Positions 43,018 through 45,489 of a stretch of DNA of 64,000 bases are shown here, piece after piece (positions within the stretch are counted from its first letter, which is position 1; each line of letters begins with the position of its first letter). The translations under genes were made by a program, and so were the position numbers. The DNA is from Pseudomonas sp. P5_109 (GTDB lineage: Bacteria; Pseudomonadota; Gammaproteobacteria; Pseudomonadales; Pseudomonadaceae), in the NCBI RefSeq assembly GCF_034009455.1, contig NZ_CP125380.1:1281001-1345000 (forward strand), read 5' to 3'. A model generated the notes under the pieces. The model ran no database searches. It saw only the letters and a list, made by a program, of their open reading frames with translations, and had not been told where the DNA came from.

Positions 43018-43330
43018 ATTTCTTCGGTAACGGCGGCTTATGGTTTCGCCCTTACGGCGAGTCCCTTTTGGCAAACGCCCCAAAAGGAACCAAAAGGTCT
43101 CGCCCCTTGCGTACGGCCCCTCGCTGAGGCTCGGGGTTCCTTCGCTCCGGTATCCATCCGGGGACACTGCCCTCCGGTCGGCTTCGCTTCGACCTACATG
43201 CAGCGTGTTCGACTGCGTCGAACGGCGCTGCGCGCCCATCCCCGGATGAACACCTCCACTCAGCCTCCCGAGGGGGCGGGTGGATCAAGATCAAGAGCTG
43301 CAGGCGAGCTAACGCTCGGCCTGATGAGTG
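43018..43330. repeat. dispersed pseudomonad-type intergenic repeat
   Basis: The stretch with CTTACGGCGAGTCCCTTTTGG, CCCCAAAAGGAACCAAAAGG, CGGCCCCTCGCTGAGGCTCGG and TTCGACTGCGTCGAA has the look of a noncoding repeat family I remember from many pseudomonad genomes. The open frames across it are not convincing genes. It fills the gap between mexK and the REP array. Confidence 0.55.
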
Positions 43331-43655
43331 GTGAAGAGCATGGGGGTACGCCGATCAACTGTAGGAGCTGGCTTGCCAGCGAAGGCGGCCTGCCAGCCGA
43401 CCAATCTCTTGCAGGCATACCCGGATCAACTGTAGGAGCGGGCTTGCCCGCGATGGCGGCCTCACAGCCAACCAATCTCTTGCAGGCATACCCGGATCAA
43501 CTGTAGGAGCTGGCTTGCTAGCGATGGCGGCCTGCCAGCCAACCAATTCCTCACAGATGTATCCAATCCCCTGTAATTGGATGGACTCGCCCAAGCCGAG
43601 GCGTCAATGCGCCACGGTGGCAGTCTAAACAGCCAACGACAGCGAGGGCGAGTCC

Positions 43656-44760
43656 ATGAAAAATCATAGTTCGTTTGATCAATCCGTGTCTTCTTCCGAT
43701 TTGTCGGCCTGCACAACCTTGGCGGTCGACTTGGCCAAACAGGTCTTTCAGGTCGCCGGTGAAGATATCCTCGGCCAGGTGCTCTACGAGCAGCGGATCA
43801 AGTCGCGCGAGGCGTTTTATGATTTTCTCCGACAGTTGCCGGCGCATGTCGTGGTTTTGATGGAGACCGGTCCGGGTGCCCAGGCCTGGGCCCGGCAGCT
43901 GCAAGAGCAAGGTAATCCGGTGCGGATTCTTCCAGCCGGTTTTGGTGGCCACACATCGCAGCGGGCCTAAAAATGATCGCAACGATGCGCTGGCGATTCT
44001 GCGGGCCAATCGCGATGAAAAAATCTGCGCAGTACCGGTCAAAAGCGTTGCGGCGCTGGCAATGCAGGCGTTGCATCGCGCCCGCCAGGGCTATGTGCGT
44101 CGACGCACGGCCCTCAGTAATCAGATGCGCGGCCTGCTGCTTGAGCACGGCGTAGCCTTGGCACAGGGCGATGTTGCGATCAGCCAGAAAATCCCGCGGG
44201 TGCTGGAAGATGCCACCCAGCCGGTGCCGGGCCTGCTGCGTGAGCTGATCGACGAACTGTTGGCCGAGTGGCGCCATTTGGGCGAGCGCATCAGCGTACT
44301 GACGGGACGCCTGGAAGTGGCCGCCAACGCTGACATGACGGCGAAGCGGCTAATGACTGTACGCGGCATCGGCCCGGTCACTGCCACGGCACTGGTGGCC
44401 AAGGAAACCAAGCCTGAGCGCTTTCCCAATGCCCGCAAGTTTGCCGCGTACTTTGGCATGGTGCCTGACCAGCACAGCAGCGGGGAGACGGTCCGGTTGG
44501 GGGGCATGACCAAGCGCGGTGATGCTTATTTACGCAGCCTGATGATCCAGGGGGCCCATGCGGTGCTGCAACAACTACGACCTGATTCCCAGCAACCCGA
44601 TGACCGCCGCTTGTTGCACTGGATGAGCCGGTTGGGCCGTAAGGAGGCTGCGATCAGGCTAGCCAACCGCAACCTGCGAATCGTCTGGGTGCTTCTACAG
44701 AATGACCAGACTTATCGTCGCCACGCGGGTGATGGCCAGCCAGCGACGATGGGCCACTGA
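43656..44760 (+). pseudogene. IS110/IS1111 family transposase, one-base frameshift
   Basis: The first frame (43656-43970) encodes the N-terminal DEDD RuvC-like part (TTLAVDLAKQVFQV, VLMETGPGAQAWARQL). The second (to 44760) resumes at VLVATHRSGPKNDRNDALA and holds the C-terminal domain with GIGPVTATALVA and the likely nucleophilic serine in QHSSGETVRLGG. Joining RILPA to VLVATHR requires removing one base near 43938, giving about 367 residues, a normal length. IS110 transposases are single-frame, so this copy is probably inactivated. Confidence 0.88.
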
Positions 44761-44799
44761 GCGACAGAGTTCTGCCACCGAGGTACTAACCGTCTGACC

Positions 44800-44997
44800 C
44801 TCTGCTGAAAAAAATTGACCCCAGGTAAGACCGGCGTGGATTGATGCCTAAGCTCCTACTGGCCTTCGAGGCCTGACTGTAATCGGCATACCACGAGCTT
44901 TTCCAATTTTGGCCAGAAGCCGAAGACGGCTTCCACGAATAGGCCTAATACATAGATGCAACGGGGCAGCGGTTTTTCAAAAGCGGGTAGACAGTGG
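44800..44997 (+). ncRNA. candidate bridge RNA of the IS1111-type element
   Basis: The noncoding right end can fold two hairpin-capped loops. Loop 1: AGCTCCTAC (44851-44859), hairpin GGCC-TTCGA-GGCC (44861-44873), ACTGTA (44876-44881). AGCTCCTAC is complementary to GTAGGAGCT, and ACTGTA matches the left half of the REP target. Loop 2: CCAATT (44903-44908), hairpin AAGCCG-AAGA-CGGCTT (44917-44932), ATACATAG (44948-44955). CCAATT is complementary to AATTGG at the left end, and ATACATAG is identical to the right end (45008-45015). The ends of the RNA are not defined. Confidence 0.6.
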
Positions 44998-45489
44998 GGG
45001 CGAGTCCATACATAGGAGCTGGCTTGCCAGCGATGGCGGCCTCACAGCCAACCAATCTCTTGCAGGCATACCCGGATCAACTGTAGGAGCTGGCTTGCTA
45101 GCGATGGCGGCCTGCCAGCCAACCAATTCCTCACAGATGTACCCAATCCCCTGTAGGAGCTGGCTTGCCAGCAATAGCGGCCTCACAGCCAACCAATCTC
45201 TTGCAGGCATACCCGGATCAACTGTAGGAGCTGGCTTGCCAGCGATGGCGGCCTGCCAGCCAACCAATCTCTTGCAGGCATACCCGGATCAACTGTAGGA
45301 GCCGGCTTGCCAGCGATGGCGGCCTGCCAGCCAACCAACTCCTCACAGATGTACCCAATCCCCTGTGGGAGCGGGCTTGCCCGCGAAGGCTGCCCAACAG
45401 TCAAAAATGTTTATCGCCAATGCTAACCATTCAGACCATTCCCACAACACTTTCAGCTTGCCCGTCGGAAGCACGATCTCTAGCCTTTG

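Follow-up and report, generated by a model that had tools for sequence, protein, structure and literature searches.

Targeting of REP sequences by the IS110 family was described in 2006 (PMC1525189), and seek or bridge RNAs of the IS1111 group, that of the REP-targeting ISPa11 included, were shown or predicted in 2024 (PMC11187229, PMC11208160). For ISPa11, which targets the P. aeruginosa REP, the seekRNA was demonstrated experimentally (PMC11187229). Seek/bridge RNAs and REP targeting are therefore known already, and the element described here is a further case of a known kind.

We analyzed a 64,000-nucleotide stretch of Pseudomonas sp. P5_109 (contig NZ_CP125380.1, positions 1,281,001 to 1,345,000; referred to as the window) that carries an IS1111-type element within a REP unit. 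The best explanation as a whole, to which we assign a probability of about 0.93, is that an IS1111-type seekRNA/bridge RNA is encoded in the right end of the element, with guides that pair with the REP edge and with the element's own ends. We establish the anatomy of the element, its insertion sites and the conserved structure of the RNA region, and we show that three of the four guides covary with the sequences they match (for the donor guides, in distant relatives).

The window element resembles ISPa11 in its IS1111 membership, its REP target, the position of the RNA downstream of the transposase gene, and its two target matches, one to the top strand followed by one to the bottom strand (PMC11187229). 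ISPa11 differs in its insertion point, which is described as lying after REP base six and before base seven (PMC1525189; compared by description rather than by sequence). The feature that distinguishes the window element is an apparent one-sided reading of the target at the REP edge, a property of its group that the excerpted description of ISPa11 does not mention (PMC11187229). IS621, which targets the E. coli REP, likewise combines an RNA with target and donor loops and a REP target, and it uses a circle intermediate of the kind predicted for the window element (PMC11208160). As a member of the IS110 group, IS621 carries its RNA in the left end, whereas the window element has 12-bp subterminal inverted repeats (sTIRs) and the RNA in the right end. 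As with the IS1111 elements ISEc11 and ISXne4, a changed guide in a relative goes with a correspondingly changed target (PMC11187229); here, however, eight guide/target pairs occur in one close group, in which only changes in the right-half guide are matched. Beyond the known cases, this element and its relatives offer a large natural series of guide/target pairs, support by comparison for the IS1111 donor loop, and the one-sided target reading. Among the matches listed in a search of literature titles, none concerned this element or one-sided target guides.

The element and its insertion sites

The ends of the 1,439-bp element were set from 13 genomic copies that share them (Table 1). The noncoding region downstream of the transposase gene (44761-45012) is longer than that upstream (43574-43655), the sTIRs are 12 bp (usual length in IS1111 elements, 11-13 bp), and the DEDD transposase has PF01548 and PF02371 in both the window copy and an intact copy (L015), all traits of the IS1111 group. 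Outside the sTIRs lie extensions of 7 bp on the left (TAATTGG) and 3 bp on the right (ACA), the lengths reported for IS1111 elements (PMC11187229); the TA core is common to target and element.

Table 1. Features of the element, its target and its right-end RNA region (window coordinates)
Feature	Coordinates	Strand	Remarks
IS1111-type element	43574..45012	+	
Interrupted REP target, left part	43571..43575	+	CTG + TA core
Left sTIR	43581..43592	+	ATGGACTCGCCC; repeat also in relatives
Transposase gene	43656..44760	+	DEDD_Tnp_IS110 + Transposase_20; frameshifted in window copy
Conserved candidate seekRNA/bridge RNA region (model R1)	44820..44968	+	
Outer target-loop stem, 5' arm	44835..44839	+	pairs with 44891-44895; double changes in 4/5 pairs
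Inner target-loop stem, 5' arm	44844..44848	+	pairs with 44885-44889
5' target guide	44851..44859	+	AGCTCCTAC; complementary to GTAGGAGCT
Target-loop capping hairpin	44861..44873	+	GGCC/GGCC
3' target guide	44876..44881	+	ACTGTA; consistent match at G-TA only
Outer target-loop stem, 3' arm	44891..44895	+	
5' donor guide	44903..44907	+	CCAAT; complementary to ATTGG of left end, 43576-43580
Donor-loop capping hairpin	44911..44945	+	GGCC/GGCC and GAAGCC/GGCTTC
3' donor guide	44948..44954	+	ATACATA; identical to right end plus core, 45008-45014
-35-like sequence	44988..44993	+	TAGACA; spacing 17 to CATAAT, which would form when ends join in circle
Right sTIR	44998..45009	-	GGGCGAGTCCAT; repeat also in relatives
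TA core + target right half	45013..45020	+	TAGGAGCT

A one-base frameshift interrupts the transposase gene in the window copy only, the other 12 copies being without it; a long open frame (376 codons stop to stop) is kept in 6 of the 13. The intact protein carries the NCBIfam name 'IS110 family RNA-guided transposase'. The intact L015 transposase (L015:1127-2227) also has a sub-cut-off match to the NCBIfam TIGR-Tas endonuclease model (28.8 vs 100 bits). A search of plasmids for the nearest named element gave at most ~42% identity, with ISPa25 the sole element named among the 25 matches listed, and the best 120 of 1116 matches in a large protein set bore generic names only.

The window element splits a REP unit between CTG-TA and GGAGCT, and intact REP units neighbouring the insertion read CTGTAGGAGC. 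A genome search recovered 13 copies of the right end, all of which interrupt a REP at the same point and in the same orientation, between G-TA and GGAGC. Visual comparison of the wider flanks groups six of the 13 sites together and a further two together, so the copies are not all independent. The bases to the right of TA are GGAGCT in 12 insertions and GGAGCC in one, yet GGAGCT, with T at the ninth guide position, makes up only 335 of the 811 intact REP units of the form searched. The corresponding binomial value within this genome, 2e-4, is lower than it should be because some of the sites have their wider flanks in common. ACTG precedes TA at none of the 13 insertions.

A conserved RNA fold in the right end

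The preliminary description placed four segments, AGCTCCTAC (44851-44859), ACTGTA (44876-44881), CCAATT (44903-44908) and ATACATAG (44948-44955), in two hairpin-capped loops of the noncoding right end. The segments are present at these positions, and RNAalifold applied to 21 relatives with no structure supplied recovered two hairpin-capped loops with the guide segments inside them. In the structure as written out for the 21 rows, 99.0% of cells pair. Changes on both sides occur in six pairs (shuffled 2.4) and 18 cells (shuffled 3.3), and shifting the partner by one to three columns lowers the paired share to 20.6-48.4%. The right-end RNA fold is conserved in relatives, with compensatory changes; the preliminary description had counted a lack of conserved structure in homologous right ends as evidence against itself. 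Single-sequence folding of the RNA was no better than shuffles (z = -0.40).

A covariance model, a check that the preliminary description had proposed, was searched against 55 distant loci and located the RNA after the transposase gene in 28 of them, with E up to 0.013; several of the 28 are copies of one element, so the loci are not all independent. A search of the RNA region against Rfam gave one chance partial match, below its threshold (E 0.059).

The 5' target guide follows the right half of the target

We compared the 5' target guide with the right half of the target in 24 genomes. The set was compiled by hand with one row per genome and comprises 16 of a first set of 25 genomes plus eight further genomes. 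Some genomes coincide, namely G129 with TH41, G230 with GM80 and probably G022 with GR12-2, G336 is like s3h14, and there may be more overlap. The nine omitted genomes have a contig or copy without a readable guide (L039-L047), L186, L187, L196 and L198 were unused, and L197 repeats the G336 junction. Protein matches covered 142 of 398 genomes in the genus and 110 of 369 in the class, from which the returned loci and 60 fetched stretches were used.

In 23 of the 24 genomes (shuffled mean 4.5), the guide and the target's right half are exact complements, with 143 of 144 guide bases matched overall (shuffled mean 108.3); in tests that treat rows without regard to relatedness, neither value was reached in any of 100000 shuffles. 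The exception (G046) is a single copy whose transposase match spans residues 1-295 only. Eight guide types face eight targets: AGCTCC/GGAGCT, AGCTGC/GCAGCT, GGCTCC/GGAGCC, CGCTCC/GGAGCG, CGCTCT/AGAGCG, CCCTCC/GGAGGG, CCAACC/GGTTGG and CGGTCC/GGACCG (guide/target). Equally good pairing arises in 1 of the 40320 permutations of these types. Outside the six bases counted, the G336 guide has G instead of the last C. Counted by junction (88 distinct, of which 11 without a readable guide were left out), the match is exact in 72 of 77; of the remaining five, four have a single mismatch and the fifth stems from a partial, internal duplication of the right end. These counts bear out the preliminary description, in which the 5' guide of the first loop was complementary to the REP.

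On a tree of the remaining RNA, guide type requires 12 changes (11 of 18 inner branches are unresolved, and support is weak), and agreement of guide and target through a single shared inheritance is therefore unlikely. Among 22 distant elements, the 5' target guide covaries with the target in 18, the other four having no usable segment. The series of natural guide/target pairs within one close group constitutes independent evidence for the IS1111 base-pairing rule.

Homologues with other targets would have spoken against a guide had they kept the same loop; instead they carry the matching one. The five fetched copies in G264 lie in a different dispersed repeat, reading AGAGCG in four cases and AAAGCG in one, and the G264 guide is CGCTCT. 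Allowing up to two mismatches, the pattern of this repeat has 87 matches in G264 and 28 in the genome of the window element. In two assemblies, one from a Rhodanobacter and one betaproteobacterial, a palindrome starting GGTTGGGG forms the right flank and the guide is CCAACC.

These data bear on whether the transposase protein itself recognizes the REP, as sequence or as hairpin, with the RNA segments resembling element and target DNA by coincidence or as ancestral copies. The palindromic REP targets and the conservation of the protein in the group would suit such recognition, but eight targets follow eight guides (and 72 of 77 junctions agree), and the G264 copies occupy a different repeat with a matching guide. 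Recognition by protein alone is disfavoured because of the eight guide/target pairs, and we consider it highly improbable.

In one G255 copy that lies near another copy (L118), the right end is partly duplicated, perhaps as a result of unusual recombination.

In this group the left half of the target is matched at little beyond G-TA

According to the preliminary description, ACTGTA in the first loop matches the left half of the target. Within this group, the 3' target guide matches 35 of 64 left-half bases in 8 rows, where shuffling gives 36.4 on average. All of 61 copies match at the base adjoining TA, 46 at the second base (shuffled 47.6) and 30 at the third (28.6), and the two bases beyond match in 6 and 5 copies (8.0 and 5.9). 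ACTGTA as a left-half selector in this group was rejected, there being no covariation beyond the invariant G-TA. The accompanying statement that most other REP units read ACTGTA holds for several units of the local array and fails more widely (10 of ~100 REPs by hand count, from the best ~100 of 300).

Distant relatives gave a different result: in 15 elements (seven of the 22 had no usable segment), the 3' target guide matches 92 of 120 left-flank bases against 59.7 shuffled, a value reached in 0 of 5000 shuffles. The lack of left-half covariation in the close group is understandable because this group inserts at the REP edge, so that what lies to the left is ordinary flanking DNA.

Selection in this group thus falls almost entirely to the right half of the target, and the left half needs little beyond the G before TA. 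Tentatively, and at slightly less than even odds, we suggest that choice of the repeat-edge target depends solely on the core-spanning 9-nt 5' guide and that the 3' target guide has been freed, so that single-base guide changes would allow the element to keep up with REP drift across hosts or to move to another dispersed repeat (as in G264). The question raised is whether half of the target guide can suffice for target choice, although ISEc11 excision required target sequence on both sides (PMC11187229).

Donor guides follow the element ends in distant relatives

Donor guides were compared with element ends in 22 distant elements drawn from the 28 loci with a model match. We excluded L080, L155, L156, L159 and L066, which duplicate or nearly duplicate other loci (L160 was taken in place of L159), and also L079 and L084, which had no clean sTIR. 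In five of the 22 rows (L088, L109, L154, L160 and L090), the guide register was set by hand after the sequences had been seen.

The 3' donor guide matches the right end plus core at 147 of 154 bases (shuffled 123.7), in keeping with the identity noted in the preliminary description, and the 5' donor guide matches the five bases adjoining the left sTIR at 100 of 110 (shuffled 82.4); neither value was reached in 20000 shuffles. The variable base of the right extension is tracked by the donor guide in 22 of 22 elements (shuffled mean 13.7). At the core positions, the 5' donor guide matches 21 of 44, against 20.9 shuffled. The complementarity first proposed between CCAATT and the left-end AATTGG therefore holds for the five bases adjoining the sTIR, and coverage of the core by the 5' donor guide was rejected, its core matches occurring at the shuffled rate. 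Likewise, the overlap of both guide pairs at the TA core applies to the target guides and does not extend in general to the 5' donor guide. Judged by sequence, the donor loop matches both element ends across the 22 distant elements.

Within the close group, where the right end is invariant in the nine rows tested, the 5' donor guide covaries weakly, with 39 of 45 bases matched vs 35.6 shuffled (413 of 20000 shuffles reach 39). One compensated change was found (G104, TAATCGG with CCGAT). Mismatches occur in L054 (G255), P. helleri (L185), G230 and G139; three of five donor bases match in L054 and P. helleri, and four of five in L034 and L060. The G012 element, outside the nine-row test, is identical to that of G255 in left end and RNA, and the G204 left end, on another contig, fits its donor guide poorly.

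That the RNA acts as a seekRNA for target choice only, with the donor matches arising from another constraint such as transposase binding to RNA and ends, and with no donor pairing, draws on this weak 5' donor covariation within the close group and on the report that a short, 82-nt seekRNA supported ISEc11 movement (PMC11187229). Against it, each donor guide in the 22 distant elements matches the ends of its own element far more often than shuffled rows do, and the variable base is tracked in every one; we regard it as unlikely. Donor pairing is the preferred reading, and the comparison supports a working donor loop in IS1111 RNAs, for which a shorter RNA was enough according to one of the two 2024 papers.

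A regulatory RNA, as proposed for the small RNAs of ISPpu9, would leave the guide-like matches to chance. The ISPpu9 transposase is reported to be regulated by small RNAs (PMC8450116), but a regulator would not be expected to covary with targets and ends, and we give this explanation very little weight. For the guide-RNA reading, the preliminary description had asked that loop segments co-vary with insertion sites and termini: the 5' target guide and, in distant relatives, both donor guides do so, and ACTGTA in this group does not. Its bridge-RNA interpretation of REP targeting is supported, except for left-half selection by ACTGTA and the core in the 5' donor guide.

One genomic copy (L023) has a base missing inside the 5' donor guide, for which the guide rule predicts weaker donor pairing.

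Circle junction and proposed mechanism

The inserted window element has CATAGG in place of CATAAT, and the promoter-like combination TAGACA-17-CATAAT is present only when the ends are joined. This predicted circle-junction promoter agrees with the one reported for ISEc11 (PMC11187229). Promoter-like pairs occur in the joined ends of most relatives and are weak in L109 and L154.

Very probably, the element makes a small RNA that reads one REP edge and the element's own ends. In the proposed mechanism, the element would leave as a circle, as its relatives suggest, and the joined ends would create the promoter, reading through the transposase gene into the RNA. The 9-nt 5' target guide would pair with G-TA-GGAGCT at the outer edge of the REP, one donor guide would pair with ATTGG at the left end of the element and the other with ATACATA at its right end, and circle and target would then be joined at TA. 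By analogy with relatives, ISPa11 among them (PMC11187229), the RNA is presumably transcribed, bound by the transposase and used, with a circle as the likely intermediate.

Repeats around the insertion

A REP array with units ~70 bp apart surrounds the insertion (window 43358-43540 and 45015-45390). Another dispersed repeat family, one end of which reads GCCGTAAGGGCGAAACCATA, is present at window 43039-43058 (minus strand) and recurs in the genome. In G264, many matches to this family form inverted pairs ~600 bases apart, and a variant of the repeat serves there as the target for a relative of the element.
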